Positions 39,172-56,118 of a stretch of DNA of 64,000 bases are shown piece by piece (within the stretch, counting starts at the first letter, position 1; every line of letters begins with the position of its first letter). The stretch is from Rhodococcus sp. IEGM 1409 (lineage in GTDB: Bacteria > Actinomycetota > Actinomycetes > Mycobacteriales > Mycobacteriaceae). The DNA lies in contig NZ_JASHKN010000006.1 of NCBI RefSeq assembly GCF_030056735.1, positions 1 through 64,000 of the forward strand, written 5' to 3'. The notes under the pieces were generated by a model that was given only the letters and a program-made list of their open reading frames with translations, was not told the origin of the DNA and ran no database searches. The position numbers were made by a program, and so were the translations under genes.

Positions 39172-39275
39172 TGAAGCCGACTCCCCTTGCTCCTGACACA
39201 TCACCCCGACATGACCCTTGACGGTCTCACGAATTCTATCGTGGTCCTATTTCAACTGAGTGTTGGCTTCGGTTG

Positions 39276-39291
39276 AACTGTGATCACAGTT
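39276..39291. promoter_or_regulatory. 16-bp palindrome upstream of the LacI gene
   Basis: AACTGTGATCACAGTT is a perfect dyad in the gap upstream of lacI. A second weaker dyad TTCAAC (39251-39256) and GTTGAA (39272-39277) overlaps it. Either could be the LacI operator. Confidence 0.5.
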
Positions 39292-39562
39292 GGTGGTGTT
39301 CACACAATCGCCCGCACTGGACTGCATGCCTCCAAGTCCGGCGGATCCCGCGGATGAATTCGATTGGGTACGGCGCCTTCGCGTTCCGCCCCAAACAGTT
39401 GGTGTCGAGCTGGCCGCAGAGATGACATCGAGCTTGTGCGCCTACCGTTTCGAACACTTGGGGCATTGGCAACGAGGAACCGATATGGCGACACGTGACA
39501 CAGATGTAACCCGCTTCGTCCACAATGCGATGGCCAGTCATTTTTCGTCCGAATCCTGTCAT
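39284..39562 (-). CDS. Possible small zinc-ribbon protein
   Basis: A 92-codon frame with two CxxC knuckles (YICVTCRHIGSS and ARCHLCGQLDTNC) spaced like a zinc ribbon. It lies in the 592-bp gap between the LacI and PucR genes. There is no clear ribosome site at ATG 39560-39562, and the 3' end runs over the lacI upstream dyad. It could be real, a remnant, or chance. The remaining part of this gap (39563-39763) is A/T-richer and holds no gene I can support. Confidence 0.35.
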   Translation of the reverse strand: MTGFGRKMTGHRIVDEAGYICVTCRHIGSSLPMPQVFETVGAQARCHLCGQLDTNCLGRNAKAPYPIEFIRGIRRTWRHAVQCGRLCEHHQL

Positions 39563-39763: not shown

Positions 39764-41305
39764 TCAGCGCCTCTTCGAGAATCTGGACGAGCTGACTGCC
39801 GAGCCCTCTAGCAATTCAAGCCCCTTGACCGCCAAAAGAAGGCGCTGACGCGTTTCCGGCTCGTCGAGGGATTTGCCGAGAATCTTCGAGATCCGCTCCA
39901 GCCTGTTGTACAAAGTTCTGCGCTGGACGTAAAGCTTGTCCGCCGCTTCAGTCTTACGTCCGTCGACGCTGAGAAATGCACGCAGCGTTGGCAACAGAGC
40001 ACTCGCCGACTGCGCGTCTTTCGTCAACAACGGACCCAGCTCGTCCTCTACGAAGTTCGCTAGTTCGGGCCCCTGCGCAAGGGTCACCAAGATTCTCTCG
40101 ACTCCGAGTTCGTCGAAGTAGAGGACGCTGCCGGATGCACGGGCGACCGCCGCCGCGCTGCGCGCTTGAGTGAGCGCGACCGCGACCATGTCGCGTGAAA
40201 CCGCCCGACTCACACCAACACCGGCGTTGACGACACCGACCAGATCCTCGATGTCAGGAGGGGAACTACTTACTTCTGGTGCCACGGTGACGATGTAATC
40301 CCCCATGTCGGCACTGATGGCGTTGGGGCTGGTCTTACGCTTCGGTCGGTTGCCGGTAGAATCATCACGAATGTTCTTGTTGGCAACGAACACTCGCATC
40401 AGGCCAGATCCGAGCCGATACCCCAGACGACTGGCCTGCTTCACGAACTCATCGCCGGAAATTTCTCCCAGCATCAGGTGTGTCATCAATGCGGTACTGC
40501 GCTGATCGTCACGCGCCTCGCGGCTACGATCGGTGAGAAGCGAGATCGCGATCGCTGCTGCTGCCCGCTCCGCCGCGAATTCAGCAGAGACCTGCACGTT
40601 CGGCGACTGGCCCTGGAGCACGTGTATCCACCCCCACGGTTGACCACGCATGACGACGGGCCTTCGGACACAATCAGTTTCATTGTCGTGGGATACTCTG
40701 GCGTGACGATTCCACTCGTCGTCGTCGAACTCGACGCCGTCGATCGAAAAGTACACGGTCACTCTGTGGGCGATATTTTCCAGGACCACCGTACTGTCAG
40801 TCAGCCCCGCCAGCGTCTCGACGATTGCAAGATGATCTGCGCCATCGAGCAACAGTCCGGAGAACGTTGCTTCTACCTCACGCTCGCGAGTTAGGCTTCG
40901 TAGTCGAGTTTCGGTCAGAATCTCGTGCACTTGTGCCGACACCCCGGCAAACGACACTTCGCGAGCCAAGGCGATTACCGGAAGCAGCATTTGCTGGGCT
41001 TCCTGCACAACAGCTTCAGGAACTCGATCGAACATGCGACCGGATTCTTCGATCACCAGTGCTGCCGCACCGGCTCGAGAAACCGCCTTCACGTAAGCGC
41101 GCTGCTCAGCTTCTGTTTCCCCTATACCGAGGCCCGCCGTCAGCAACAATTCGCCGCCGCTGAGAAATCCTGCGATATCGGGAATCTCGGACGAGTGAAC
41201 CCATCGGACTTCGCGTTGATCCAGATCCGTTCCGTTGGTGAGTACGTGAGGACCGGCCGCGCGGATCAGTGAGAGTTCCAGAGCGTCCGCAACCGTGAAA
41301 GACAT
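39764..41305 (-). CDS. PucR family transcriptional regulator
   Basis: This 513-aa PucR-type regulator has an N-terminal PucR domain (SFTVADALELSLIRAAGPHV, GFLSGGELLLTAGLGIG), a central GGDEF-like/CdaR region, and the C-terminal HTH_30 (FLSVDGRKTEAADKLYVQRR, TLYNRLERISKILGKSLDEP). ATG 41305 is used (MSFTVADAL). It is divergent from the sugar ABC transporter operon and is the best candidate for its specific regulator. Inducer unknown. Confidence 0.88.
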   Translation of the reverse strand: MSFTVADALELSLIRAAGPHVLTNGTDLDQREVRWVHSSEIPDIAGFLSGGELLLTAGLGIGETEAEQRAYVKAVSRAGAAALVIEESGRMFDRVPEAVVQEAQQMLLPVIALAREVSFAGVSAQVHEILTETRLRSLTREREVEATFSGLLLDGADHLAIVETLAGLTDSTVVLENIAHRVTVYFSIDGVEFDDDEWNRHARVSHDNETDCVRRPVVMRGQPWGWIHVLQGQSPNVQVSAEFAAERAAAAIAISLLTDRSREARDDQRSTALMTHLMLGEISGDEFVKQASRLGYRLGSGLMRVFVANKNIRDDSTGNRPKRKTSPNAISADMGDYIVTVAPEVSSSPPDIEDLVGVVNAGVGVSRAVSRDMVAVALTQARSAAAVARASGSVLYFDELGVERILVTLAQGPELANFVEDELGPLLTKDAQSASALLPTLRAFLSVDGRKTEAADKLYVQRRTLYNRLERISKILGKSLDEPETRQRLLLAVKGLELLEGSAVSSSRFSKRR

Positions 41306-41652
41306 GTCAAAGACACTACACAAAACGTGTCGTCCAGCCGAGACATCTTTCCCGCCTTGCGTCTAGCTGTGAATGCAGTCACAGGACAGTATTTCTACAA
41401 CCCCAGGGCTTCGCCAGGGGTCGTCAAACAGAGTTGAGACACATGGCGCTCCCGCTTCCTACCTGTCCGAAGATTTGTTTCAGCGCCCATATACGCCCGG
41501 CCCACCGTCCGAGTCATCGCTACCGGTTCACGAACCGAACGCGAACTGCAGGGCACCGATCCGAATCTCGACACGCACAACGCCGTGCGCCCGGACGAGC
41601 TGATTCCGCTCTTTCGACCGAACACCGACACACCCTTTTCGAGGAGTCCTCA
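41306..41652. other. Divergent promoter region of the PucR and ABC importer genes
   Basis: This 347-bp gap contains GACAC...GTGTC half-sites near the PucR start (41312-41328) and a perfect CRP-type site (separate entry). No protein-coding frame in it looks real. The importer start has AGGAG at 41642-41646. Confidence 0.6.
41368..41383. promoter_or_regulatory. CRP/GlxR-type binding site upstream of the sugar importer
   Basis: TGTGAATGCAGTCACA fits the TGTGA-N6-TCACA consensus of CRP/GlxR-family regulators exactly and extends by one more base pair on each side (C...G). It lies 270 bp before the permease ATG, in the promoter region shared with the PucR gene. This suggests carbon-catabolite control. 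Confidence 0.65.
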
Positions 41653-42732
41653 ATGCCCCTGACCGAAGACCAGCAGAAACGGCCGCCAAGCGCGGGAATC
41701 TCTGTCGATGACGTCGGCCGTTCCACTCGTTCCGCGGCACCCCAGCCGCCCCACGCCTCCTCGCAGGAATGGCTACCCGCTCTGCTCAAACGCATTGTGC
41801 CGAGCACACCGTCGCAGGTCGTTCAGCGGGTGATGCTGACTGTACTGGTCGCATCGGTGGTGATTCTGTGCATCGCCAACCCGATCTTCCGGCAGTCGGA
41901 CAACCTGCTCAACGTGCTGCAACAGGCGGCGATGGTCGGAATCATTGCCGGCGGTATGCAACTGATGATTATCTCAGGTGGCTTCGATCTCTCGGTCGGA
42001 ATCGTGGCGGCGGCAGCCGGATGCGCGGCAGCGTACGTCAGTCTCCAGCACGGTATAGCCATCGGAATTCTCGTCGGGTTAGTCGCCGGTTTACTCGTCG
42101 GCTTCGTTAACGGCATCCTCGTAGCCAAGATCGGCATCAACCCATTCGTGGCCACGTTCGGTACACAAGCTGTCGTCACCGGACTGCTGTACGCCGCAAC
42201 GGGCGCCACCCCGATCGCTCCTCTTCCTTCCGGATGGACCGATCTGGGCTTGAAGAACATCGCCGGCATCTCCTTTGCCAGTCTCACATTCATCGTGGTC
42301 GTCCTGATTCTGTTGTTCGTCTTACGATGCACGCTCTTCGGCCAGCACATCTACGCCGTCGGGAGCAACAAGGAAGGCTCGCGTCGCGCCGGAATCCATG
42401 TCGATCGGGTTCTGATTGCCGTCTATGCCATCGGCGGACTGTGCGCTGCCATCGCCGGAATTCTTCTCGTCTCGATCTCGGGAATCGGGAGTCCGGCAAC
42501 AGGTACACAGTGGGCACTTCTCGCCATCGCCGCCGTCATCATCGGCGGCACACCACTCACCGGCGGAGTCGGCGGCATCAGCTCCGCGGTGATCGGCATC
42601 CTGTCGCTCACCGTCCTCACAAACGCACTGAACCTGTACAGCGTGTCCGCTTACTGGCAGCCGGCGCTGACGGGTACGGCCGTTCTGCTCGCAGTCGGCT
42701 TCGAAGCGTTCCGCAGCGCCCGCAAACGCTGA
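41653..42732 (+). CDS. Sugar/polyol ABC transporter permease (RbsC/CUT2-like)
   Basis: This 359-aa permease has eight to ten helices after a ~60-residue cytoplasmic N-terminus rich in Pro/Ser. Family segments are IISGGFDLSVGIVAAAAGC, the EAA-like loop YAVGSNKEGSRRAGIHVDRV and the C-terminal GVGGISSAVIGILSL. ATG 41653 follows AGGAG. It is the first gene of a permease, binding protein, ATPase operon. The CUT2 group carries ribose, inositol, fructose or similar monosaccharides. Confidence 0.9.
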   Translation: MPLTEDQQKRPPSAGISVDDVGRSTRSAAPQPPHASSQEWLPALLKRIVPSTPSQVVQRVMLTVLVASVVILCIANPIFRQSDNLLNVLQQAAMVGIIAGGMQLMIISGGFDLSVGIVAAAAGCAAAYVSLQHGIAIGILVGLVAGLLVGFVNGILVAKIGINPFVATFGTQAVVTGLLYAATGATPIAPLPSGWTDLGLKNIAGISFASLTFIVVVLILLFVLRCTLFGQHIYAVGSNKEGSRRAGIHVDRVLIAVYAIGGLCAAIAGILLVSISGIGSPATGTQWALLAIAAVIIGGTPLTGGVGGISSAVIGILSLTVLTNALNLYSVSAYWQPALTGTAVLLAVGFEAFRSARKR

Positions 42733-42780
42733 TACGTCCGATTCCCCTCGCAGCCAACCACATTCCAGGAGTGACAACAT

Positions 42781-43749
42781 ATGACCGTAAGAAGAACTTC
42801 CCGAACGATCAAAACCGCATTTGCCCTTTGTCTGGCTGCGTTCGTCGCCGTCGCACTCACGGCCTGCGGAACCGCACCTTCCTCGGGTGCAAACAAGACA
42901 CTGGGCTTCGTGGTGTACGACATCGGCGTCGACCCGTGGATGAACGTAGCCATCTCGACTGTGCAAGAAGAAGCTGAAGCTGCGGGATACAAGCTCAGTG
43001 TTGTCAACGGGCACAACGACATCGCTCAGATGAGCAGCGGAATGGACCAGCTCGTCGCGCAGAAGGTCGACGCAATTCTCCTCGCCCCCAGCGACCAGGA
43101 CAGCATGACGCCGTCCATCAAACGCGCCGAGGCAGCCGGAATCCCGGTCATCGCATTCTCCATGGCACTGTCCGAAGACGCCCCGATCTCCTCATTCGTC
43201 GGAACAGACGACGTTCAGGTCGGACGCGAGCAAGCGAAGATGGTCGCAGGAGCAATAGGCAATCGGGGAAACGTCGCCTTGATGACCGGCATCCTCGGCA
43301 GTGGGCCGCAGATCGGTCGGTCGGAAGGATTCCGTGCCGAACTGCAGGAGAACTTCCCCGACGTCAAGCTCGTCGAAGAGCAGCCGAACAACTGGGCGAA
43401 CGACAAGACCATCAGCCTGACCCAGGACTGGCTCGCCAAGTATCCGGCAGGGCAGATCAACGCCGTTGTCGCGCAAGGACCCGAATTGGCTGCGGGCGCC
43501 CGCCTGGCCAAGTCGATGGGCCGAAGCGAAATCGTCTTCGTCGGCAACGACTATCCGGAAGAGATGCGCGAGAGCATCCTCGCGGGAGACACGTACGGAA
43601 CAATCAACGGCGATCCCAAAGAGATGGCGCGAGAAGCTGTCGCCGCCATGCTGACCCTTTTGGACGGCGGCACGGTGCAACCGAAGATCTTCGTCCCGAT
43701 CCCGCCCGTCACATCCGCCAACGTCGCCGACTCCCCCGCAGCGTACTGA
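42781..43749 (+). CDS. Sugar/polyol-binding lipoprotein (CUT2)
   Basis: This is a 322-aa periplasmic-binding-type lipoprotein. The signal peptide AFALCLAAFVAVALTAC ends in a lipobox (LTAC). Next come a CUT2 fold opening GFVVYDIGVDPWMNVAISTV and ligand-pocket stretches (ILLAPSDQDSMTPSIKRAEA, VPVIAF-like IPVIAFSMAL). It lies 48 bp after the permease. Ligand identity cannot be read off; inositol- or ribose-type binders are the nearest by layout. Confidence 0.9.
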   Translation: MTVRRTSRTIKTAFALCLAAFVAVALTACGTAPSSGANKTLGFVVYDIGVDPWMNVAISTVQEEAEAAGYKLSVVNGHNDIAQMSSGMDQLVAQKVDAILLAPSDQDSMTPSIKRAEAAGIPVIAFSMALSEDAPISSFVGTDDVQVGREQAKMVAGAIGNRGNVALMTGILGSGPQIGRSEGFRAELQENFPDVKLVEEQPNNWANDKTISLTQDWLAKYPAGQINAVVAQGPELAAGARLAKSMGRSEIVFVGNDYPEEMRESILAGDTYGTINGDPKEMAREAVAAMLTLLDGGTVQPKIFVPIPPVTSANVADSPAAY

Positions 43750-43781
43750 TTCGAGACGACCCCCAGATCGGAACCACCTCA

Positions 43782-44561
43782 ATGAGTACTATCACCAACA
43801 CCACCGAGCCTCTTCTCCAGACCACGAACCTCTCAAAGTTCTATGGCGGCGTCAAAGCGTTGCAAGGCGCCTCCATCAGCGTCGGACACGGTGAGCACAT
43901 CGCCATCATGGGCGACAACGGCGCAGGCAAGTCCACCTTCGTCAAGATCCTTTCCGGCGCACAACCGTCGAGTGATGGCACCATCCGATTCGACGGTACC
44001 GACTGTGAATTCCAAAGCCCGATCGATGCACGCGAAGCCGGGATCGAAACCGTCTATCAGGATCTTTCACTCGCAGACGACCTCGACGTCCTGACCAACC
44101 TGTTCCTCGGGCGTGAAGAGAAGCTGATCAACCTGGGCGACTTGAGCGTGCTCAACAGACGCAAGATGGCCAAGCGTGCAACCGAATTGCTCACGGAGAT
44201 CGGAGTGAACGTGCCCGAGGTACACCGGACCGTTCGGGGTCTCTCCGGTGGCCAGCGCCAAGGTATCGCCATCGCCCGCGCATCCGGTTGGGGCTCGAAG
44301 CTCATAATCATGGACGAACCCACAGCGGCATTGGGCCTGCAGGAGACCGCCCACGTCCACGACATCATCAAACGCCTCAAACAACGCGGAGTCGCGGTCA
44401 TCATCGTCAGCCACAACATGCAACAGGTGCTGGAACTGACCGACCGGGTGTACGTTTTCCGGCGAGGCCAGGTCGTCGGGTGCCGAAACACCAAGGAAAC
44501 CACCGCCGACGAGATCGTCTCGATGATCACCGGCGCCCGACCAGCAGAAGCCGTCACGTAA
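43782..44561 (+). CDS. Sugar ABC transporter ATPase, single domain (FrcA-like)
   Basis: This 259-aa ATPase has Walker A GDNGAGKSTFVKIL, the signature GLSGGQRQGIAIARA, Walker B LIIMDEPTAALG and the H-loop VIIVSHNMQQVLEL. It has one nucleotide-binding domain, unlike the duplicated RbsA, and so must dimerise like FrcA. It ends the three-gene importer operon, 195 bp before a strong terminator. Confidence 0.9.
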   Translation: MSTITNTTEPLLQTTNLSKFYGGVKALQGASISVGHGEHIAIMGDNGAGKSTFVKILSGAQPSSDGTIRFDGTDCEFQSPIDAREAGIETVYQDLSLADDLDVLTNLFLGREEKLINLGDLSVLNRRKMAKRATELLTEIGVNVPEVHRTVRGLSGGQRQGIAIARASGWGSKLIIMDEPTAALGLQETAHVHDIIKRLKQRGVAVIIVSHNMQQVLELTDRVYVFRRGQVVGCRNTKETTADEIVSMITGARPAEAVT

Positions 44562-44589
44562 GCAGCTGTAGCTGCAAGCAGATCGACGT

Positions 44590-44630
44590 ACAGGCCCGTC
44601 TGAAGTCACCACGACTGTCGACGGGCCTGT
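44590..44630 (+). terminator. First hairpin after the importer operon
   Basis: ACAGGCCCGTC (44590-44600) pairs with GACGGGCCTGT (44620-44630), an 11-bp stem with a 19-base loop, 28 bp after the ATPase stop. No T-run follows. Confidence 0.6.
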
Positions 44631-44755
44631 TCGTGTCGCGGATCCGAGACTCACTGTCTCACCGTCACCGTCGGCGTCGGACATCCGAGACCCTTTCCAT
44701 CACCCATCTGGCCCCCACCGCCCCAGACGAGGCAGAACTACAGCCGCCGAGACGA

Positions 44756-44799
44756 AAAGTGCTCGGGCCCAACCTGATGAGGTTGGGCCCGAGCACTTT
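44756..44799. terminator. Strong bidirectional terminator between importer and catabolic operon
   Basis: A perfect 20-bp stem (arms 44756-44775 and 44780-44799) with a four-base GATG loop starts AAAG and ends CTTT, so it has A and T tracts for both strands. It separates the plus-strand importer from the convergent minus-strand isomerase gene that ends at 44810. Confidence 0.9.
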
Positions 44800-44809
44800 C
44801 GGTGTTCGG

Positions 44810-45661
44810 TTAGTTGATCTGTATTCGGCCGTCGACGGCTTCGATCAATCCGCTGAGGTGGGTGTAGCTCTTCTTCGCGGCGTCGAGCGTGCCGCACTCC
44901 ACCGACAAGACGACGTCGTGGTCGGCCGCGGCGAGTGTGTCGACGATGCGCTTCCAGTCGATGACGCCTTCACCGCATGCGCATCCCAGCATGCCTCGCA
45001 CTTTTCCGCGTAGACGTTTCGCGTCGTCTAACGCAATGTCCTTGGCGTGCAGGTGCGTGACCTGACCGATGATGGCTTCGAGCCACTCGTGCGGATCGTT
45101 CTCACTCAGGTAGCTGTTTCCGGTATCGAGGTTGATCGTCAGGGCAGGACTGTCGACCAATTTCATGATCTTGTCGAGGCGCTCCGGAGTCGCGGTGTAC
45201 GGCCCGTGGGTCTCGATTGCGATCTTGATACCCCGGGGTTCCGCGACCAGCGCTGCTTCCTTCAGGGTGTACCGCATGAGCGTGTAGTTCTCTTCCTCCG
45301 TGGTCCAAGACGGGGTGGGTCCATCGTCGACCATGATCATCGGAGAACCTGCCTCCGCGGCGTAGCGGATGGCCTGGCGGAAGTACTCCACTGCCACCTC
45401 CGGCTTGGCGAGTGGCGCGTGGCTCGACAGCGACGAGATGCTGAGACCGCGATCTTCGGCCGCATTCCGTAGGATCAACGGATCGTCGAGCATGGAACGA
45501 CTGTGGAAATATCCTGCTGCACTGAGCAGTTCACGACCCCAGTGCACCATCGGCTCGACGTACTTGTAGCCGATCTCAGCAGCTTGGTCCATGGCCCAAT
45601 CGAAAGAGCCGTTCTCGTATCGCGCGAACTCCAGATTAAGTCCGAGTTTGATGTTGCCCAT
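44810..45661 (-). CDS. TIM-barrel sugar isomerase/epimerase (IolE/IolH-like superfamily)
   Basis: This 283-aa protein of the AP-endonuclease-2/xylose-isomerase-like TIM-barrel superfamily has barrel and metal-site segments IAIETHGPYT, TINLDTGNSYLSE, VTHLHAKDIALDD and VVLSVECGTLD. Glu, Asp, His and Glu side chains give the usual divalent-metal site. It is the last gene of the minus-strand row, 31 bp after the IolD-like gene. In inositol breakdown the analogous enzyme IolE dehydrates a keto-cyclitol; an equivalent step is inferred, not shown. Confidence 0.85.
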   Translation of the reverse strand: MGNIKLGLNLEFARYENGSFDWAMDQAAEIGYKYVEPMVHWGRELLSAAGYFHSRSMLDDPLILRNAAEDRGLSISSLSSHAPLAKPEVAVEYFRQAIRYAAEAGSPMIMVDDGPTPSWTTEEENYTLMRYTLKEAALVAEPRGIKIAIETHGPYTATPERLDKIMKLVDSPALTINLDTGNSYLSENDPHEWLEAIIGQVTHLHAKDIALDDAKRLRGKVRGMLGCACGEGVIDWKRIVDTLAAADHDVVLSVECGTLDAAKKSYTHLSGLIEAVDGRIQIN

Positions 45662-45692
45662 GACTTACAACTACTTTCCGGTGAGGGGTGGG

Positions 45693-47492
45693 TCAGAAGC
45701 CGCGCTGGTTCACGTAGTCGTCTCGAACTTCGCCGTGGTAGGCCGGTACGGTGATGTCCCACCAACCCATTGCATGCATCTCGGTCCAGGGCAGCTCGCG
45801 AGCACTGATCGCCTCGATGACTACGGGGCCCTCGGTCTCGAATGCGCGCTGAACAGCGGCGCCGAGCTTTGCCGGATCCTCGACACGCTCGGACTTGCAT
45901 CCGAGGGACTGGGCGAACGCAGTGATATCGGCGAAGTACGGGGATCCATCCGGCAACTTCCAGCCTGAGATGATTTCCCGTTCCGCGCCGAAGAGATTGA
46001 TCTGAAGGTCCTTGATTGCTTCCCAGCCACCGTTGTTCAGAACGACGAAGACGACATTGACGCCGCTCATGGCGGCAGCTGCGATCTCCGTGCCGGTCTG
46101 TAGGAACGCGCCATCGCCGACGAGCGCGAGAACCGGCTTGTCCGGTGCGCCGATCGCGGCGCCGATCGCGGCAGGTACACCGAATCCGATTCCGGAGAAT
46201 CCGCCGGCAACGATGTTGCTCTTCGGCTCGTAGATCGGGAATTCGTTGAACGCCTGGTTTGCCGGGTTGCTGGAATCGGTGACCAGAATTCCGTTACGCG
46301 GAAGAACCTTTCGGATCTCGACCATTGCCCGCGAGTTGGTCATCGGCAAGTAGTCGGTCTCACGCATAGGGCGCAGGTGCTCGTCCCACTGCGCCTTCAA
46401 GTCCTGAAGTTCGGCGTAGTAGTCGGTTGCTCGGAAGTCGTAATCCGCTGCCGGTGCGCCGAGTTCGTCGATCAGAGACGCGAGCGAGGTCTTGGCGTCG
46501 CCGACGATCCCGACCTCGACCGGGTAGTTGCGGCCGATCTCGAATCCGTCGATGTCTATGTGAACGAGTTTCGTGTTAGGGATGTCGAATGTGACTCCCG
46601 GGCGGTACGAGGACGTGATGCGATCGCTGAACCGGCAACCCACTGCAAGAATGACGTCGGCGGTCTTGGTGACTCCGTTACCCGGAATCGATCCCATGTC
46701 GCCGCACGGCCACGCGTACAGATCGTGGTCTGCAGGGAATGCGCCTTTGCCTTGGAAGGAGTGCGTCACGGGAGCGCCGAGACGTTCCGCCAGTGTGAGG
46801 AGTTCCGCACCGGCCTCGGCTGCGATGACGCCACCGCCTGCGAGGATCACCGGACGCTTAGCCCCCGCCAGTAGCTTGGCCGCCTCGGCGATGGCGACGG
46901 GATCACCAGTCGCCCGGGTCTGAGCTCGGCGCGAGTACAACTCCGGAACATAGTCGCCGTACTCAGCCTGCAGATCCTGCGGGATATCCACCAGGACAGG
47001 CCCTCTGCGCCCTTCGAGCATCGTGTTGAAAGCCTGAGCCATCGCGGAAGGTAGCTGCTCCAGTCGACCGGGCTGCCACCAGCGCTTGACGACCGGCTCG
47101 ACCATCCGTGGGAAATTGTTCCCGTGCGGGCGATCGATCTCCTGGAGTACACCGCGGTTCTCCATGTACGTGTGAACGGCGCCGGTGATCAGAATCATCG
47201 GCTGCGAGTCCGCGAACGCAGTCGCGATTCCGGTTACGGTGTTGGTCGCTCCCGGTCCGATGGAAGTACAGACGGCCGCGATCTTGCCCGATGCGCGGTA
47301 GTAGCCGTCGGCCATGTGTGCGGCGCCCTGCTCGTGGATGGCGGGAACCAACTCGATTTCATCCGACCGGTCGACGAACGCATCGAGCAACGCCGTATTG
47401 CCGTGTCCCGGGATAGCGAATACCTTTTCAACTCCTTCACGGATCAGTATGTCGACCACCATCTGGCCACCGGTGAGCTTTTGCACAGTCAT
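45693..47492 (-). CDS. IolD-like ThDP-dependent hydrolase/lyase
   Basis: This is a 599-aa ThDP enzyme. The Glu motif is VPAIHEQGAAHMADGYYRAS and the ThDP motif is LVGDGAFLQTGTEIA followed by VVLNNGGWEA. Features that recall IolD (trihydroxycyclohexanedione hydrolase) rather than acetolactate synthase are FAIPGHGNTALLDA, CTSIGPGATNTVTG, LVDIPQDLQAEYGDY and the C-terminal GWWDITVPAYHGEVRDDY. IolD is slightly longer (~610-640 aa). ATG 47492 opens MTVQKLTGGQM. It lies between the GMC oxidoreductase and the TIM-barrel isomerase, suggesting C-C cleavage of a diketone made by them. Confidence 0.82.
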   Translation of the reverse strand: MTVQKLTGGQMVVDILIREGVEKVFAIPGHGNTALLDAFVDRSDEIELVPAIHEQGAAHMADGYYRASGKIAAVCTSIGPGATNTVTGIATAFADSQPMILITGAVHTYMENRGVLQEIDRPHGNNFPRMVEPVVKRWWQPGRLEQLPSAMAQAFNTMLEGRRGPVLVDIPQDLQAEYGDYVPELYSRRAQTRATGDPVAIAEAAKLLAGAKRPVILAGGGVIAAEAGAELLTLAERLGAPVTHSFQGKGAFPADHDLYAWPCGDMGSIPGNGVTKTADVILAVGCRFSDRITSSYRPGVTFDIPNTKLVHIDIDGFEIGRNYPVEVGIVGDAKTSLASLIDELGAPAADYDFRATDYYAELQDLKAQWDEHLRPMRETDYLPMTNSRAMVEIRKVLPRNGILVTDSSNPANQAFNEFPIYEPKSNIVAGGFSGIGFGVPAAIGAAIGAPDKPVLALVGDGAFLQTGTEIAAAAMSGVNVVFVVLNNGGWEAIKDLQINLFGAEREIISGWKLPDGSPYFADITAFAQSLGCKSERVEDPAKLGAAVQRAFETEGPVVIEAISARELPWTEMHAMGWWDITVPAYHGEVRDDYVNQRGF

Positions 47493-47533
47493 GTTCTTCA
47501 CTTTCGAATCGAAAAGAATTGGGGGTGAGCGAT

Positions 47534-49120
47534 TTATGCAGGGATCGACGAGCCGTGCGATACACCCGCCGCGGAGTCGCCGCTTCGAGCGATGATCGAA
47601 TCTGCAACACGCAACGCGTTCGCCGCGATCGACAGCGCCGGATTCATCACCGGGAGCGATGGAAAGAAGGAGGAGTCGACGACATACAGGTTGTCGACAT
47701 CGTGTGCCTGGCAACTTGGATCGAGGACCGATGTAGCCGGGTCGGTACCGAGCCGAACGGTTCCGGCCTGATGCGAGTTGACCTCTATCCCTGTTCCTTC
47801 ACTGATGACCACCGGAAATCCGATCTTGCGAAGCATTTTTCGCGTCTCGCGAACCAGAACCTCGTGCGCCCGGACGTTATTCGGTTCCCACGCGATCTGG
47901 ATACGCCCTCCGGGAGTCAGCGTGACACGATTTTCAGGGTTGGGCAGATCCTCCGTGAACAGCCACCAATCGGTACTACGGTTCGTGGCAAGGCTCAACG
48001 CCCATTTGGGGATGTAGGGCCGTTGCCCCTTGATCATCTCCGCCTGGAGCTTCCCGATCAGTTGCACGTGACCTAGCGGATACGGATGATCGTCAGTGCC
48101 GCGCAGGTAGAAGTCGTTGAAGTACAACGTCTTTTGAAACTCGGACTTGTTCTTCTTGAGTGGGTCGATGGCCACCATGATCGAGTTCATATGCACCATG
48201 TAGTTACGACCGACCATTCCGGAGGAATTTGCAAGCCCGTCAGGATGGACAGACGTGGCCGAACGTAGCAGCAGCGCTGCAGAATTGACCGCGCCGCAGG
48301 AGATGACGACCGTATCCGCCCGTACTGTCGAGGTGACGCCACGATGAGTCACTTCGACGCCGGATGCTCGACGTCCGGAATCGTCGGTCAGCACCTTCTC
48401 CACGTACCCGTTTGTGACGATTTCGACGTTGCCCGAATCGAGTGCGGGTCTCACGCAACAGACATCGGCATCCGATTTCGCCAAGGTACGGCAAGGGAAC
48501 CCGTCGCATGTCTTGCATCGAATGCATGCCCCACCCTGCCGTAGGTCGACTCCGAGAGGGAGATTGGAAGGGGTGAAACCCGCCTTACGCATGTCGTCGG
48601 CGACCTGCTGTATCGCCGGCTCGTGCCCTACGGGAGGGTACGGAAACGGTTCGTCGCGTGGCAACGTCGGGTCGTCGGTGTGGTCGCCGTGAACCTTGTA
48701 CACCTGCTCGGCACGTGCGTAGTAGGGTTCGAGATCGTCGTACGAGAACGGCCATGCCGGCGATTCACCGTCGTGATGCCGTGAGGACTGAAAATCCTCT
48801 CTCCTGAACCTGACCAGCGAGCCACCGTAGAATTTGGTGTTTCCGCCGACGTAATAGTAGGTGCCGGGGGCGAACTCCCGCCCTTCGGTGTCGACCCATT
48901 TTTCGGCGTTCTTGTACCGATCTTTCTCGAACACCGCTCGGGGGTCCCAATTCTGACGTTCCTGTGGAAGGAAGTCTCCCCTCTCGATCAAGAGCACATC
49001 GAGGCCGGAATCCTTGAGAGCGTATGCCATCGTTCCACCCCCCATTCCGCTTCCCACGACGATGACGTCGTAGTTGCTCTTACAGGGGGGATGACTGTCC
49101 ATTCGTGTCTTTTCGAACAT
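47534..49120 (-). CDS. GMC-family FAD oxidoreductase (sugar/polyol dehydrogenase)
   Basis: This 528-aa flavoenzyme has the dinucleotide fold DVIVVGSGMGGGTMAYALKD, the GMC glycine-rich YYVGGNTKFYGGSL, and the catalytic C-terminus NSHQAGTVRLGTD with SFFPSLPVMNPALSIAANAL (His/Asn pair). A Cys-rich stretch (GGACIRCKTCDGFPCRTL) matches bacterial pyranose/polyol GMC enzymes. No signal peptide is present, so it is cytosolic. ATG 49120 has GGAG upstream. It probably oxidises a sugar or cyclitol hydroxyl to a ketone as the first step of the pathway. A promoter with an overlapping operator lies ~110 bp upstream. Confidence 0.85.
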   Translation of the reverse strand: MFEKTRMDSHPPCKSNYDVIVVGSGMGGGTMAYALKDSGLDVLLIERGDFLPQERQNWDPRAVFEKDRYKNAEKWVDTEGREFAPGTYYYVGGNTKFYGGSLVRFRREDFQSSRHHDGESPAWPFSYDDLEPYYARAEQVYKVHGDHTDDPTLPRDEPFPYPPVGHEPAIQQVADDMRKAGFTPSNLPLGVDLRQGGACIRCKTCDGFPCRTLAKSDADVCCVRPALDSGNVEIVTNGYVEKVLTDDSGRRASGVEVTHRGVTSTVRADTVVISCGAVNSAALLLRSATSVHPDGLANSSGMVGRNYMVHMNSIMVAIDPLKKNKSEFQKTLYFNDFYLRGTDDHPYPLGHVQLIGKLQAEMIKGQRPYIPKWALSLATNRSTDWWLFTEDLPNPENRVTLTPGGRIQIAWEPNNVRAHEVLVRETRKMLRKIGFPVVISEGTGIEVNSHQAGTVRLGTDPATSVLDPSCQAHDVDNLYVVDSSFFPSLPVMNPALSIAANALRVADSIIARSGDSAAGVSHGSSIPA

Positions 49121-49218
49121 GGTTTCCGTCTCCTGGCTGGCTTGACGCTGTACGTCCTTGAACCGTGCCGACTCAGCTTCTGTCAATCCTGACGCAACAG
49201 GACTGCAAGTAGTTATAC

Positions 49219-49256
49219 GTATCACTAAACGATACCGCCCACATGTGCGGTGTCAA
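49219..49256 (-). promoter_or_regulatory. Sigma-A-like promoter with overlapping operator before the GMC gene
   Basis: On the minus strand TTGACA (49256-49251) and TATCGT (49234-49229) are 16 bp apart. The palindrome GTATC-N7-GATAC (49219-49235) covers the -10. This would start a transcript for the GMC, IolD-like and isomerase genes, repressible at the -10 site. Confidence 0.6.
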
Positions 49257-49273
49257 CCGCCCTGAAGACCTGG

Positions 49274-50707
49274 TCAGGTCGACGGGACGAGCGGATCGAA
49301 ATCGGGAGCCGACACGATCGCAGTTCGTGCCAAATTCACAGGCTCCATGATCGCGTCCAGATCCTCCTTGCCCAACAACCCGCGTTCGAGCACCAACTCC
49401 ACGACGGTACGACCGGAAGCAAGCGCGTCCGCCGCCAATTCCGTCGCGGCTGTGTAGCCGATGTAGGGATTGAGCGCGGTCACGACACCGATCGAAGCCG
49501 CGACCGTTCGTTCGAGATGCTCGACGTTGGCGGTAATGCCGATCACGCATCGCTCGCGCAACACAGTGCAGCCCCGCGTGAGGAGTTCTGCAGTCTCGAA
49601 CAAGCTGTGTGCAATGACCGGTTCGAATGCGTTGAGCTGCAGTTGACCCGCCTCGGCAGCCATGGTGATGGTCAGATCGTTTCCCACCACCCGGTAGGCA
49701 ATCTGATTGACCACTTCGGGAATGACCGGATTGACCTTGCCGGGCATGATCGACGAACCCGCCTGCACCGCAGGTAAATTGATCTCACCCAGCCCTGCTC
49801 GTGGGCCCGAGGACAGCAATCTCAGATCGTTGCAGATCTTGGACAGCTTGACCGCGGTGCGCTTGAGCACTCCCGACAGCTGGACGAAGGCCCCGACGTC
49901 CTGGGTTGCTTCGATGAGATCCGATGCCGTCGAGATGTCGAGACCGGTGATCGACACCAGATGCTCACGCACACGTCTGGCGTACTTCGGGTGCGCATTG
50001 AGACCGGTACCTATCGCCGTCCCTCCCAGGTTGATCTCCGAGATCAACCGAGCGGCCTCTTCCAGTCTCTGAGAGTCCTCCTTGATCATCACGGCAAACG
50101 TGACGATCTCTTGACCGAGAGTCATCGGGACCGCGTCTTGCAATTGTGTCCGCCCGACTTTGAGCACGTGGGAGAACTCGGCTGCTTTCTCCGCGAATGC
50201 GTCTGCAAGTTCGTCCATCGCACCTCGAAGCCTGGTGACCGCACCTTGCAAGCCGATTTTGATCGCGGTGGGGTAGACGTCGTTGGTGCTCTGACTCATG
50301 TTGACGTGTTCGAGCGGATGGAGGAATTGGTACTGCCCCCGCTCGCGGCCGAGCATTTCGAGCGCGCGGTTCGCGACCACTTCGTTGGCGTTCATGTTCG
50401 AGGACGTGCCGGCACCTCCCTGAATGACGTCGACGACGAACTGGTCGGCGAACCTGCCCGCGCGAATCTCCTCGCAAGCTTGCTCGATCGCTGCTGCATG
50501 CTCCGGCGAGAGGATTCCGAGGTCGGCGTTCGCCCGAGCAGCGGCCTGCTTGACCGCGGCCAACGCCGATACCATGTCCGGGTGGACCGAGAGAGGAATA
50601 CCGGTGATCGGGAAGTTCTCCAGTGCCCTCAGCGTATGGATGCCGTAGTAGGCCTCCGCAGGCACTTCACGATCACCGAGTAAGTCGTGCTCGATGCGCA
50701 TCGTCAT
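49274..50707 (-). CDS. aspA: Aspartate ammonia-lyase
   Basis: This 477-aa fumarase/aspartase family enzyme has the signature GSSIMPGKVNPVIPEVVNQ, the substrate-binding GGAGTSSNMNANEVVANRAL and HVNMSQSTNDVYPT. The opening IEHDLLGDREVPAEAYYG is typical of AspA rather than FumC. ATG 50707 overlaps the stop of the dehydrogenase gene (ATGA). It would release ammonia and fumarate from aspartate. Its place in a sugar-type operon is odd and may indicate a nitrogen-containing substrate. Confidence 0.85.
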   Translation of the reverse strand: MTMRIEHDLLGDREVPAEAYYGIHTLRALENFPITGIPLSVHPDMVSALAAVKQAAARANADLGILSPEHAAAIEQACEEIRAGRFADQFVVDVIQGGAGTSSNMNANEVVANRALEMLGRERGQYQFLHPLEHVNMSQSTNDVYPTAIKIGLQGAVTRLRGAMDELADAFAEKAAEFSHVLKVGRTQLQDAVPMTLGQEIVTFAVMIKEDSQRLEEAARLISEINLGGTAIGTGLNAHPKYARRVREHLVSITGLDISTASDLIEATQDVGAFVQLSGVLKRTAVKLSKICNDLRLLSSGPRAGLGEINLPAVQAGSSIMPGKVNPVIPEVVNQIAYRVVGNDLTITMAAEAGQLQLNAFEPVIAHSLFETAELLTRGCTVLRERCVIGITANVEHLERTVAASIGVVTALNPYIGYTAATELAADALASGRTVVELVLERGLLGKEDLDAIMEPVNLARTAIVSAPDFDPLVPST

Positions 50708-52026
50708 TTGAGGTTTGCCGCCACCGGGATCTCGCCCCACGGCAGTTCGGCTCCACCGAACTTCGCCGCACGCAGGTCACCCGAACGGGCGTGCCCTTCG
50801 AAGCGTTCCAATCGGGACAGTCGCGCAGCGATCTCGCCGATCCTGGCACTCGCCGCCGGGTCGCGCACCTCCTGGAAAGTGAGGGTTTTGAGGAACTTCC
50901 CTACCCAGAGTCCTCCGGTGTAGCGCGCAGCGCCAAGAGTAGGAAGTACATGGTTGGTCCCGATCACTTTGTCGCCGTAAGGAACACACGTTCCTTCCCC
51001 GAGGAAAAGGGCACCGTAGTTGCTCATGTTGTAGAGCGCTTCACGAGGATTCTGCGTGAGGATCTGTACGTGCTCGGAGGCAAACTTGTCCGCGAGTTCG
51101 TATGCTTCGGAGAGAGTCTCGACAACGTGGATCTGTCCGTGGTCGCGCCAGGCGGGCCCGGCGATCGCGTTCGTCTCCAGACCGGGTAGCAATGCGTCGA
51201 TGTGTTTGATCACCTCGTTGCCCACAGCCTCGGACGTCGTGATCAACACACACGGTGAATCCGGACCGTGCTCCGCCTGGCTGAGTAGATCCACTGCGAT
51301 AGTGAACGGGTCGGCGTACTCGTCGGCAACAATCAGTGTTTCGGTGGGGCCTGCAAAGAGATCGATTCCGACCTCACCGAAGAGTTGACGCTTCGCCTCT
51401 GCAACGTATGCGTTGCCCGGCCCCGTGAGGATCGAGACAGGATCGATCGTCTCGGTACCGAGAGCCAGCGCTGCGATCGCCTGCACGCCACCGAGCACAA
51501 AGATCTCGTCGGCCCCGGCGAGATGCATTGCGGTGATGCTGATCTGGGGCGGCAGCCCGTCGTTCGGGGGCGTCGTGGCCGCGACGCGTTCGACGCCTGC
51601 GACCTTCGCGGTCAGCACCGTCATGTGCGCCGACGCCGTCAGCGGGTACCTGCCACCCGGAACGTAGGCTGCGGCCGCGTCGATCGGAACGTTCCGGTGC
51701 CCCAAGAACACGCCGGGCAGGGTCTCGACCTCGAGGTCTGTGATGGTATCGCGCTGTGCCTGCGCGAAGTCGCGAATCTGGCGCTGCGCGAACTGCAGGT
51801 CTTCGAGGACCGTTGTCGGAACGGACTTCACGATCTCGCGGATCTGATCTTCGTCGAGCCGGAACGAATCCGGTGACCACCGGTCGAAACGGTCAGAGTA
51901 CTTGCGGACAGCGTCGTCACCGTTGGCACGAATGTCTGCGATCACACCCGCGACAGTGTCGACCACCGCCGGATTGCTGGCACGCTGCGCTGGTTCGCCG
52001 ACTGCTGCTTTGAGAACGAACGACAT
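50704..52026 (-). CDS. Histidinol dehydrogenase-like enzyme, HpsN (sulfopropanediol dehydrogenase) type
   Basis: This 440-aa protein of the HisD fold has NAD and metal-site segments (YVPGGRYPLTASAHMTVL, LTGPGNAYVAEAKRQLFG, GIDLFAGPTETLIVAD, SQAEHGPDSPCVLIT). The features VFLGHRNVPIDAAAAYVPGG and the ending GTNHVLPTLGAARYTGGLWV resemble the HpsN branch, which oxidises a terminal hydroxyl of sulfopropanediol, rather than biosynthetic HisD. No other his gene is present. GAAGGAG precedes ATG 52026. Substrate unassigned; a 1,2-diol or hydroxyacid is likely. Confidence 0.78.
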   Translation of the reverse strand: MSFVLKAAVGEPAQRASNPAVVDTVAGVIADIRANGDDAVRKYSDRFDRWSPDSFRLDEDQIREIVKSVPTTVLEDLQFAQRQIRDFAQAQRDTITDLEVETLPGVFLGHRNVPIDAAAAYVPGGRYPLTASAHMTVLTAKVAGVERVAATTPPNDGLPPQISITAMHLAGADEIFVLGGVQAIAALALGTETIDPVSILTGPGNAYVAEAKRQLFGEVGIDLFAGPTETLIVADEYADPFTIAVDLLSQAEHGPDSPCVLITTSEAVGNEVIKHIDALLPGLETNAIAGPAWRDHGQIHVVETLSEAYELADKFASEHVQILTQNPREALYNMSNYGALFLGEGTCVPYGDKVIGTNHVLPTLGAARYTGGLWVGKFLKTLTFQEVRDPAASARIGEIAARLSRLERFEGHARSGDLRAAKFGGAELPWGEIPVAANLK

Positions 52027-52387
52027 TGGCGGGTTACTCCTTCGAGGTGAGGCATGAAATCAAACTGATAGCCCTAGCTTTCCTGCGAAGTGATCCAGCG
52101 AACAGACACATAGAGGGAAGCACTTCTGTCAAATTCTGCCCAATCCGTGCATGATGTGCAGGTCGTTCGAAAGCTCACGGCCAGAGCAGGTTCAACACTC
52201 GCACCTGCTCACACTGGTCGATCAGCAGCTCACGCTTGCACGTTTTGGCGCTGTTGATATTCATCGCCACTTCGTAGGGTTGACCTACCAGATTTCATCC
52301 GCGCCGAACTCCTGACGTCGAGTCGGCCAATACCCGGAGCCGTCGCTGTCTATTCGACATCGTCGATGCCCGAGAAGGAATACTTCG
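52027..52387. other. Divergent promoter region (HpsN-like vs Gfo/Idh/MocA)
   Basis: This 361-bp gap separates divergent start codons. It is A/T-richer than the surroundings. It has ribosome sites at each end (AGAAGGAA for the plus gene) but no convincing dyad or frame. It likely holds promoters for both operons. Confidence 0.5.
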
Positions 52388-53398
52388 ATGAGCGAACAAC
52401 CGCATCTGGTCTGGGGAATCGTCGGTGCGAGTGACATCGCCGAAACGCGAATGATTCCCGCACTGCGAAGGACCGGCCACCACATCAGTTCCGTGTACAG
52501 CGGAAATGCGGACCACGCCGAGCAGTACGCACAGCGGAACGAGATATCGAACCGAACGAACAACCTGAACGATCTGCTCAGCGATTCCCTCATCGATGCG
52601 GTCTACATCTCCAGTGCAAATGATCACCATCTCGAGCAGGTGTGCGCGGCGGCAGCAGCCGGAAAACACGTTCTCTGCGAGAAGCCGCTGTCGACGAGCA
52701 TCGACAATGCGCGGAAGATGACCGCCGCTTGCGAATCCGCCGGCATAGTCCTAGGTGTCAACCACCACCTGCCCGCCGCAGGTACGCACCAGGCAATTCG
52801 ACGCACAGTGGCGCGCGGCGACATCGGCCGCATCTTGTCGGTCAGTGTTCGCCACACGTCGCTCCTACCCGAACGGTTGCGAGGGTGGCGACTCGGTAGC
52901 GCGCCGGGATCAGGCGCCGTCATGGATCTTTCCTGCCACAACGCCTCAGTCGTGAATCCGCTACTCGGTACCAGAGCACTGACGGCGAGCGCGATCACTG
53001 TGACTCAAGGAGATTGGGTGACCGAAGCCGAAGATGCAGCCTCCTCGTCGATTCTCTACGAGAACAACGTCCTCGTACGATTCCACGACACTTTCACTAC
53101 ACCCTTCGCACCCACGTATCTGGAGGTGCACGGGACAGACGGCAGCCTTCATGCTGCCGACGTCATGACTCCGGAACCCATCGGCTCGGTCGTTCTGCAC
53201 GATGGCCGGGGATCGCACGAGATCGACGTCGAAGACCGCCGGCACACGTACGACATCACTCTGGAACACTTCACCCGTGCCACGCGCGGTGACGGCCGAC
53301 CCGTCGTCGACGGACTCGACGCGACCAACGCACTGGCAGTGAGCATCTCGATACTCGAGTCGGCCAGGACTGGCAGCCGGGTCACAGTCGACTTCTGA
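52388..53398 (+). CDS. Gfo/Idh/MocA family oxidoreductase (IolG-like fold)
   Basis: This 336-aa NAD(P)-dependent dehydrogenase has the Rossmann motif WGIVGASDIAETRMIPALRR, the family EKPL in VLCEKPLSTS and the catalytic region GSGAVMDLSCHNASVV, where Asp and His-like residues replace the canonical DxGxH with DLSCH. The C-terminal domain binds sugar or cyclitol. ATG 52388 follows AGAAGGAA. The family includes inositol dehydrogenase (IolG); this gene is divergent from the catabolic row, so a redox step on the same compound is plausible. Confidence 0.85.
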   Translation: MSEQPHLVWGIVGASDIAETRMIPALRRTGHHISSVYSGNADHAEQYAQRNEISNRTNNLNDLLSDSLIDAVYISSANDHHLEQVCAAAAAGKHVLCEKPLSTSIDNARKMTAACESAGIVLGVNHHLPAAGTHQAIRRTVARGDIGRILSVSVRHTSLLPERLRGWRLGSAPGSGAVMDLSCHNASVVNPLLGTRALTASAITVTQGDWVTEAEDAASSSILYENNVLVRFHDTFTTPFAPTYLEVHGTDGSLHAADVMTPEPIGSVVLHDGRGSHEIDVEDRRHTYDITLEHFTRATRGDGRPVVDGLDATNALAVSISILESARTGSRVTVDF

Positions 53399-53449: not shown

Positions 53450-54064
53450 ATGTTCATGAAACGTCCCACTGAGCATGACGAAAATACGGATTGGAATAGA
53501 TTCGCCATCCCACAATTCGTGGAACTTCTGCGGTCTGGTTCAGTTGGGCGCGGCCCGGCAATCGTAGGGATCGACGGGAGGGGTGGTTCCGGCAAGTCGA
53601 CGCTGGCCGCACTGTTGTCGGCAAACTGCACTGGGGTGGTCATCGTGCACACAGATGACATCGCGTGCAGTCGAACATTCTTTGGCTGGGACACCTTGCT
53701 CGCCAAGGAATTACTTGAACCGATAAGGCGAACTGGGCTTCCATTCACCTTCCAGCCGAACCACGACAAGCCTCGCGATATCGCGGTCCCTGACCAGACG
53801 ACGTTGCTGCTCGTGGAAGGTGCCGGGTCGATCCGCCGTTCATTGCGGATGTTGTACGACGCGACAGTGTGGGTCGACACCGCACCGGAGACAGCGCGAC
53901 AACGATTGGTCGAGCTCGGCGAGGATCCACAGGGCTATCACGACGACAGGATGATCGAAGAGAATGCGTTGCTGAACTCGGACCGCCCTTGGGCGCACGC
54001 AATGTTTCACGTGTCTGGAACCAACTCTGCGACCAACGGCACAGTCCTGGTGCGCCGAACATAA
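53450..54064 (+). CDS. Uridine kinase-like P-loop protein
   Basis: This 204-aa protein has Walker A GIDGRGGSGKSTLAALL and the phosphate-acceptor region VIVHTDDIACSRTFFGWDTL. The C-terminal half carries the RQRLVELGEDPQGY lid-like segment of small nucleoside kinases. ATG 53450 or 53456 could be the start. It follows the Gfo/Idh/MocA gene by 51 bp. Nucleoside/uridine-kinase-like proteins of this size are often annotated without known substrate. It could phosphorylate a sugar or nucleoside. Confidence 0.75.
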   Translation: MFMKRPTEHDENTDWNRFAIPQFVELLRSGSVGRGPAIVGIDGRGGSGKSTLAALLSANCTGVVIVHTDDIACSRTFFGWDTLLAKELLEPIRRTGLPFTFQPNHDKPRDIAVPDQTTLLLVEGAGSIRRSLRMLYDATVWVDTAPETARQRLVELGEDPQGYHDDRMIEENALLNSDRPWAHAMFHVSGTNSATNGTVLVRRT

Positions 54065-54825: not shown

Positions 54826-56118
54826 TCAGTGGGAGACCGTGTGATGCTCCGGCTTCGGAGCATTTCCCGTACGTTCCGTTTCCGAGTATCGCGGAACGGT
54901 TTTCATCAATACAGGACCGCCGACGGCGATGAGCAGGAGCAAGATTGCCGGCAGCGCCGGCATCCAGCCGATTCCGAATCCGTCGACGATGAGCGTGATC
55001 GCAGCCGGCCCGACGAGCATGCCGACGTAGCCGATCGCATTGACAATTCCGATGTTTCTTCCGGCGTTCTCGGGGTCACGACGGCCGGCAGCAGAGAGCA
55101 TCAGCGGAGCCATGCATGCCAGCCCGAGCCCCAGGAGAACGAATCCCACCAGGGCGAACGGAGCTGACGCACCCCCGATCGCAAGCAAGGCGCCGACGAA
55201 TCCGATTACACCACTGACGGCCACGATGACGCGCGCACCGAAGTACTCGGCGAGCCGGTCACCGAAGAGGCGCCCCACGAATTGCGCGCCGGAGTAGAAG
55301 GTCACAGCTGTCGCAGCCATACCAGCGCTCGTATCGGCATGGCGCCGGACGAACTCCTGTCCCCAGTCCAGAATTGCGCCTTCGCTGAGCATCGATGCCA
55401 GCATCAAGAGGCCGAATCCGGCCATGATCAGCAAAGTCGTCGTCGACGCCGATCTCCCGGTTGTCGATTGCTTCCCGATCGCGACTGCGGCGTCCGGGGG
55501 AAGCAGCTCATCGCGAGTCAACAGCCAGCGACCGAACACAGCTCCGAGAACCGACATGGTGACACCGATCGAGATGTAGGCCACGGCGGGGCTCTCGACA
55601 TAGTGACGGGCGATTGCACTGGCCACCAGGCCGATGACGAATCCGCCTGCCGGATAGGCCGCGTGGAACGCAGACATGATGGGCCTGCCGTAGTAACGCT
55701 CCACCTGCACACCGTGTGTGTTGAAGGCGGTATCGAAGGCACCTCTCAACAAGCCAATCATCACGCCGAGGAACATTGCGCTGGCAATACCCTGTAAGAA
55801 CGCGAACGGGATATACATCAACGGGTAGATGATCATCGTCGGCATACAGGTGGCTCGCGGACCGTACCTGTCGACGAACGGCCCGATGAGGAAGCAGCCG
55901 ACTGCAGCGCCGACGCCGATCGCCAATGCCACCAGCCCGAAATTCGAGTCGCCGCCCTCCCCCTGCCACCCCAGATGAGCACGGAGCGCAGTGGTGTTCG
56001 TCGACCACGTGAGCATGACCGCTCCCAATTGTGCGAATCCGAAGAATGTCGCAACCCGGGCAAGCCGAATTCGCTGGAGGCTCAGCGCCCGCGGGTCTTC
56101 CGAAATGTTCGTAGTCAT
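54826..56118 (-). CDS. MFS transporter
   Basis: This 430-aa, twelve-helix major facilitator protein has the loop motif IGPFVDRYGPRATCMPTMII between helices 2 and 3 and a second-half repeat (LIGAAAVG-like, FGDRLAEYFGARVIVAVSGV). The N-terminal helices and size fit the sugar/organic acid MFS groups. It is divergent from the GH3 gene. A carbohydrate or glycoside substrate is plausible from the neighbour, but it could be a drug efflux pump. Confidence 0.85.
   Translation of the reverse strand: MTTNISEDPRALSLQRIRLARVATFFGFAQLGAVMLTWSTNTTALRAHLGWQGEGGDSNFGLVALAIGVGAAVGCFLIGPFVDRYGPRATCMPTMIIYPLMYIPFAFLQGIASAMFLGVMIGLLRGAFDTAFNTHGVQVERYYGRPIMSAFHAAYPAGGFVIGLVASAIARHYVESPAVAYISIGVTMSVLGAVFGRWLLTRDELLPPDAAVAIGKQSTTGRSASTTTLLIMAGFGLLMLASMLSEGAILDWGQEFVRRHADTSAGMAATAVTFYSGAQFVGRLFGDRLAEYFGARVIVAVSGVIGFVGALLAIGGASAPFALVGFVLLGLGLACMAPLMLSAAGRRDPENAGRNIGIVNAIGYVGMLVGPAAITLIVDGFGIGWMPALPAILLLLIAVGGPVLMKTVPRYSETERTGNAPKPEHHTVSH

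Follow-up and report, generated by a model that had tools for sequence, protein, structure and literature searches.

A Catabolic Gene Row with an IolD-Like Enzyme

In the first 64,000 nucleotides of contig NZ_JASHKN010000006.1 of Rhodococcus sp. IEGM 1409, hereafter referred to as the window, a row of five genes on the reverse strand (52026–44810) encodes, in this order, a HisD-like dehydrogenase, an aspartase-like lyase (AspA), a GMC flavoprotein, a thiamine diphosphate (ThDP)-dependent enzyme and a xylose-isomerase-like TIM barrel protein, the whole row being directed against the rightward genes of a CUT2-type importer (41653–44561). Judging from its gene families and recurrence, the row is real, conserved and catabolic and includes an IolD-like enzyme. 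We read it with moderate confidence as a non-phosphorylating oxidative operon whose substrate would be a sugar or cyclitol but not myo-inositol. Gene content, gene order, conservation, the clade and motifs of the ThDP enzyme and the occurrence of clade members in inositol (iol) operons are direct observations at the sequence level.

An earlier note on this DNA had described a CUT2 importer facing GMC, ThDP and TIM barrel genes, and this arrangement was recovered (41653–44561 on the forward versus 44810–49120 on the reverse strand), as were, in family-model scans, open frames of the stated families for every gene named there. The note had omitted, however, the HisD-like and AspA genes at the head of the row and an iron-containing alcohol dehydrogenase (Fe-ADH) gene next to that of the MmsA-type dehydrogenase. 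The HisD-like (50704–52026) and AspA (49274–50707) genes are coupled by an ATGA overlap, in which the start codon of the latter overlaps the stop codon of the former. The start codons of AspA and of the GMC (47534–49120), ThDP (45693–47492) and TIM barrel (44810–45661) genes were picked by inspection.

Placement and Motifs of the ThDP Enzyme

Two trees were calculated for the ThDP enzyme, one with 34 rows and a single long IolD branch and a second one with 35 rows including eight more IolD rows. The latter is divided into three groups comprising 9 IolD rows (100/100), 8 acetolactate synthase (ALS)-like rows (100/100) and 18 rows together with the window enzyme (96/92), placing it in a third clade apart from both IolD and ALS. 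The tree tool warns that IolD and ALS-like rows join through long branches, so that rooting is unsure and no sister relation with IolD is claimed. Clustering with acetolactate synthases, which the earlier note had named as a refuting outcome, is not seen in either tree. The identity of the ALS-like rows was verified by model for the synthase of the same genome (1083.4 bits, cut-off 881) and for L033 (813.6 bits) and L044 (849 bits), both above the TIGR00118 cut-off.

The window enzyme, 29% identical to the genome's own IolD, is a member of the same ThDP family as IolD, the 3D-(3,5/4)-trihydroxycyclohexane-1,2-dione hydrolase, and has two motifs in common with it. The first, [PF]GHG, is present in all 24 clade members analyzed, among them near-copies from related rhodococci, and in 15 of 15 IolD sequences but in none of 21 ALS-like ones. 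The second, WWD, is found in 23 of the 24 (22 when a stricter form is applied), again in all 15 IolD and in none of the 21 ALS-like sequences.

The strongest functional clue is the position of clade members in two Bacillota iol operons (L029 and L030), where ThDP enzymes 48 and 47% identical to the window enzyme and falling inside its clade take the IolD slot. The gene order is IolG, LacI, ThDP, IolE-like, IolB (in L029, the locus covered by the IolB scan; 291 bits, cut-off 205) and then IolC, with IolG scoring 370.8 and 374.2 bits (cut-off 355), IolC 341.9 and 342.4 bits (cut-off 300) and the IolE-like proteins 289.3 and 283.9 bits, both just under the cut-off of 290. Across the whole L029 and L030 genomes, for which completeness is not given, no IolD over the cut-off was found; the best matches to the IolD model (311 and 306.2 bits) fall at the clade ThDP genes themselves. 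A related setting is seen in haloarchaea, where IolM lies near relatives of the ThDP enzyme in four of five fetched loci, as established by model in L020 (513.1 bits) and L178 (555.2 bits; cut-off 450) and by annotation in L176 and L179, while none was seen in L177. From annotation, L178 also carries MmsA. Among these haloarchaeal loci, the trees included L020. Where named at all, the listed members of the third clade are called acetolactate synthase or thiamine pyrophosphate-binding protein, and two members of the clade occupy the IolD place of inositol operons.

Profile scores, however, point toward ALS. The window enzyme obtains 383 bits with the ALS model (cut-off 538.35) and 321.6 bits with the IolD model (cut-off 715), hence staying under both, and the ALS model is likewise ahead of IolD for all five other clade members read in frame, always below the cut-off and with IolD not listed at the limit used for two of the five. 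In addition, BbmA and ALS chains are the nearest solved relatives. These results would suit a non-hydrolytic lyase or carboligase of the transketolase, glyoxylate carboligase or ALS type, cleaving an alpha-hydroxy-ketone that the GMC enzyme has formed, the likeness to IolD then being ancestral only. Such a role is rather unlikely in our view, as the clade is separate from ALS, the motifs shared with IolD are absent from the 21 ALS-like rows and the IolD slot is occupied in two iol operons. Although the profile scores favor ALS, the ThDP step is thus best interpreted as IolD-like ring cutting, based on the shared GHG and WWD motifs, the third clade, the IolD slot in Bacillota and the IolM gene nearby in a haloarchaeon. 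As a side observation, the window holds a second ThDP-family gene (4660–6213, reverse strand), with one match stretch containing an internal TGA and the other lying in an open frame.

Relation to the Inositol Pathway of the Genome

On another contig of the same genome (C22), IolD (915.5 bits), IolB (284.5 bits) and IolC (394 bits) all exceed their cut-offs, accompanied by MmsA (684.7 bits). The IolG-like gene of this locus (312.6 bits, cut-off 540) and two IolE candidates on C22 (156.8 and 138.7 bits, cut-off 290) remain below, and by these models the C22 locus is canonical in IolD, IolB and IolC only. A model search of the whole genome found IolB nowhere except on C22 and IolC over the cut-off likewise nowhere else, which bears out the earlier statement that both are missing from the window. 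Moreover, the same ThDP gene occurs in L022, L025, L026 and L027, the actinobacterial genomes tested for IolD, and all four have an IolD over the cut-off elsewhere. Together with the three C22 genes, this strengthens the suspicion already voiced in the earlier note that the substrate may not be myo-inositol, and on these model assignments the row is not the genome's inositol pathway.

Accordingly, the idea that the row represents a second, rearranged pathway for myo-inositol or another plain inositol isomer was rejected, IolD, IolB and IolC being located elsewhere in the genome. It could draw on the IolD-like ThDP enzyme with its clade members in iol operons, on the TIM barrel, MmsA and Gfo/Idh genes in the window and on the fact that the C22 locus itself is without an IolE or IolG over the cut-off. 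Nevertheless, it is improbable, given the three C22 genes over their cut-offs, the window without IolB or IolC over the cut-off and the presence of HisD-like and AspA proteins, neither of which takes part in the iol pathway as known.

Of the rearranged iol-like pathway that had been proposed, the IolD-like ThDP enzyme stands, whereas IolE and IolG are unsupported and the HisD-like and AspA genes had been overlooked. Specifically, the claimed coverage of IolE, IolD and IolA roles holds for IolD by motifs and clade context and for an MmsA/IolA-type dehydrogenase by its score (678.9 bits, cut-off 448.5, with TIGR01722, a model at the subfamily level that cannot tell IolA and MmsA apart), but not for IolE, since the TIM barrel reaches only 51.2 bits with that model (cut-off 290). 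The MmsA gene (35387–36877, forward strand) is indeed nearby, at a distance of 4.8 kb from the importer start and not of 6 kb. Similarly, a Gfo/Idh/MocA oxidoreductase of the IolG fold is encoded divergently from HisD (52388–53398, forward strand), but it scores 106 bits with D-xylose dehydrogenase Gfo6 (cut-off 350) and 104.9 bits with IolG (cut-off 355), so that it is not an IolG by model, and it is linked in just one of the 15 close loci described below. Compared with the bacterial iol pathway, the window would share the proposed order of oxidation, dehydration and ThDP-dependent ring opening as well as the MmsA-type enzyme. It differs by a GMC flavoprotein instead of IolG and a TIM barrel far under the IolE cut-off, is without IolB, IolC and IolD by model and has the added HisD-like and AspA proteins, from which we argue that the pathway would end unlike that of inositol.

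Conservation and Linkage of the Row

The row recurs in other Actinomycetota, on an Ensifer plasmid and, with another gene order, on a Priestia plasmid, and is therefore more than a chance assembly. Its distribution is patchy, since the ThDP enzyme is found in 8 of 28 genomes of the genus at an E-value of 1e-150 or better and in 2 of 296 genomes of a class sample at 1e-130 (four candidates scored per genome), the IEGM 1409 genome being included in both counts. Literature searches, with relevance judged by title, found no description of such a row.

Linkage was counted at a threshold of 40% identity over 40% of the query, leaving out the window, G321 (whose contig equals that of L021 in length), G300 and L185. 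Where genomes have second copies, those in G299 and G303 are part of the tally for the respective first-group locus, and those in G304 and G321 do not enter the tally; for loci that end early, misses are upper bounds on true absence. Among 15 close loci, GMC and HisD are each linked in 14, TIM in 11 and AspA, Fe-ADH and PucR in nine each, with MmsA and LacI (six each), the importer (two) and Gfo/Idh (one) being rarer. The close locus without a GMC gene of the window kind (L016) has another GMC gene. Nine loci of a second group show GMC in all cases, HisD in six, ThuA in five, AspA and GH3 in three each and the window-kind TIM barrel in none, three of them carrying a different TIM barrel. By comparison, 70 distant ThDP loci used as controls show HisD once and GMC and the others not at all.

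This linkage also bears on the possibility that the genes do not form one pathway at all and that a glycoside-directed gene set, with a sugar 3-dehydrogenase and an isomerase, just happens to lie near unrelated HisD, AspA and ThDP genes. ThuA and GH3 genes do recur in second-group loci, and relatives of the HisD-like protein are also encountered in stretches with no annotated ThDP gene. On the other hand, the ATGA coupling of HisD and AspA, the location of the row on one strand and a linkage repeated in several phyla, as opposed to the 70 distant loci, make a fortuitous neighborhood hardly probable.

Several relatives of the row deserve mention. In five large-genome rhodococci (L129, L130, L132, L134, and L139) a second GMC-ThDP-ThuA set is present, with a ThDP enzyme about 45% identical to the window's, and in three of the five it is located about 12 kb from the first. 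Two Rhizobium loci have the same HisD-ThDP pair with no AspA annotated and with genes for a PIG-L deacetylase and an aminotransferase-family protein instead. An amino acid permease is encoded in three loci, assigned by annotation in L018, by Pfam in L026 and by similarity to the latter in L028.

The HisD-Like Dehydrogenase and the Aspartase-Like Lyase

With TIGR00069, a model unable to tell HpsN-type proteins from histidinol dehydrogenase, the HisD-like protein scores 439.9 bits (cut-off 243.8). Its closest solved chain is HpsN (8v35, 385.8 bits), compared with 252.7 bits for the best true HisD. HpsN, the dihydroxypropanesulfonate (DHPS) 3-dehydrogenase, is marked by the motif G-R-Y-A/S-H, and its His126 and Lys353 contact the sulfonate, according to the HpsN report (PMC11382572). 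Compared with that description, the window protein belongs to the same family and has the zinc ligands, the Glu-His pair and the lysine of the GDK loop, but GRYPL replaces the HpsN motif, with Leu in place of His126. All 21 HisD-like rows, window included, show GG[RK]YP[LM] and GDK, so that the signature histidine is consistently Leu or Met; the housekeeping HisD of the genome (L166), in contrast, has GGNAVY and GDY at the places of GGRYPL and GDK in the window protein. The kept sulfonate-contacting lysine combined with Leu for His126 would suit a substrate that is anionic but not a sulfonate. Despite HpsN being the closest solved relative and its lysine being kept, the idea that the HisD-like protein acts as HpsN in the breakdown of a sulfosugar or of dihydroxypropanesulfonate was therefore rejected as very improbable, since the histidine of the HpsN motif, as given in that source, is replaced by Leu or Met in every one of the 21 rows and no window gene among those scanned passes a sulfonate-specific model.

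HisD-like relatives also occur in stretches with no annotated ThDP gene, often with an SDR gene directly beside them or at one gene's distance and once together with Fe-ADH and MmsA. Hence, the substrate of the subfamily may be an intermediate common to several pathways. Separately, a module on a Metabacillus plasmid (L122, 6288–11813) combines Fe-ADH, MmsA, HisD-like and GntP permease genes.

AspA scores 741.5 bits with the subfamily model PRK12273 (cut-off 510) and 679.3 bits with the equivalog TIGR00839, 1.9 bits under its cut-off of 681.2. It belongs to the same family as aspartase (L-aspartate ammonia-lyase) and keeps the active-site stretches GGAGTSSNMN, QSTND and GSSIMPGKVNP of the E. 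coli enzyme.

Proposed Pathway

From the gene families we infer every reaction, the order of steps and the substrate of the following pathway. After uptake by the CUT2 importer, a ring hydroxyl would be oxidized to a ketone by the GMC flavoprotein (PF00732/PF05199), a probable sugar or cyclitol dehydrogenase whose nearest solved chains are FAD glucose dehydrogenase (124.9 bits) and fructose dehydrogenase (102.6 bits). IolE catalyzes the removal of water and IolD a hydrolysis between two carbonyls. By analogy, the TIM barrel (PF01261, 110.1 bits), a putative dehydratase or isomerase whose residues E149, D178, H204 and E254 are the same in all of 50 aligned sequences, may dehydrate the ketone to a cyclic 1,2-dione, and the ThDP enzyme would then hydrolyze the bond between the two carbonyls, giving an acid and an aldehyde with a CH2 group next to the acid. 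A pyranose substrate could in this way yield a C4 deoxy acid with a CHX-CH2OH end, which the HisD-like enzyme might convert by four-electron oxidation to a C4 dicarboxylate, namely L-malate (X = OH) or L-aspartate (X = NH2). By our own reasoning, (S)-3,4-dihydroxybutanoate would match R-DHPS stereochemically and give L-malate. Finally, the aspartase-like enzyme would form fumarate, while MmsA and Fe-ADH could deal with a C3 semialdehyde by-product.

The aspartase would be accounted for if the hydroxyl were replaced by an amine, and the substrate is possibly an amino sugar or aminocyclitol. A complete pathway for such a nitrogen-bearing compound, via flavoprotein oxidation, IolD-like cutting, formation of L-aspartate by the HisD-like enzyme and release of fumarate and ammonia by aspartase, is a tentative proposal with a rather low probability, to which the deacetylase and aminotransferase-family genes of the Rhizobium loci point weakly.

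Besides the profile scores of the ThDP enzyme, several points weigh against the oxidative operon as read here. The proposed C4 dicarboxylate end comes from chemical reasoning only, and with malate as the fragment the lyase would be superfluous. The TIM barrel is weakly IolE-like, and a 40% relative is missing from four of the 15 close and from all nine second-group loci. AspA is missing from six of the 15 and six of the nine, and in its Thalassospira and Paracoccus relatives the active-site stretches are altered. Linkage of MmsA and of the importer is restricted to the few close loci given above (6/15 and 2/15), and the control loci, at least 3.2 kb long with a median of 18.2 kb, could miss neighbors when short. 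Should the proposed functions of the window enzymes hold, the use of IolD-like ring cutting would extend beyond inositol, and the HisD subfamily recognizable by the single motif GG[RK]YP[LM] would have a catabolic role.

Importer, Regulators and Other Neighboring Genes

The importer consists of a permease (41653–42732, with an ATG start), a sugar-binding protein (42781–43749) and a single-domain ATPase of 259 aa (43782–44561), all on the forward strand and of the ribose/arabinose type. The assignment is at the family level, as all score below equivalog cut-offs, the permease reaching 188.4 bits with AraH (cut-off 378; other CUT2 permease models score below it) and the binding protein 105.9 bits with the RbsB model (cut-off 337). 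The ATPase, assigned by model scan, has relatives of like size in Ensifer (L017) and Leucobacter (L027). Between the converging operons, a long and perfect inverted repeat (44756–44799) is a predicted terminator.

Divergently from the importer, a PucR-type regulator is encoded (39764–41323, reverse strand; PF07905, PF13556), followed by a LacI-type regulator (38116–39204, reverse strand; Pfam scan) and, beside MmsA, the Fe-ADH (36923–38086, forward strand; PF00465/PF25137). A search for an operator common to the promoters gave no more than isolated palindromes and partial repeats of weak quality; the palindromes at 41367–41384, between PucR and the importer, and at 39275–39292, upstream of LacI, are candidate operators. 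No Rfam family above the gathering score was found at 34000–60000.

On the far side of the row, a NagZ-like single-domain GH3 protein (56519–57613, forward strand; PF00933, 134 bits) aligns without the Asp-Ser-His of its solved relatives, on which ground an ordinary NagZ was rejected. Relatives of at least 40% identity are found in none of the 15 close and three of the nine second-group loci, and its link to the row is uncertain. A conserved protein of about 231 aa is linked to ThDP/HisD loci elsewhere (L119, 9183–9878; L017, 13844–14542; L016, 3374–4072), the L119 and L017 copies giving no Pfam match. An MFS transporter gene (54826–56118, reverse strand) has relatives of 73–74% identity in L129, L130, L133, L135, L138 and L139, and in related rhodococci such relatives adjoin PucR. 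A small kinase-like P-loop protein is encoded at 53450–54064, and a relative of it adjoins the MFS gene in L133, with a weaker one in L135.

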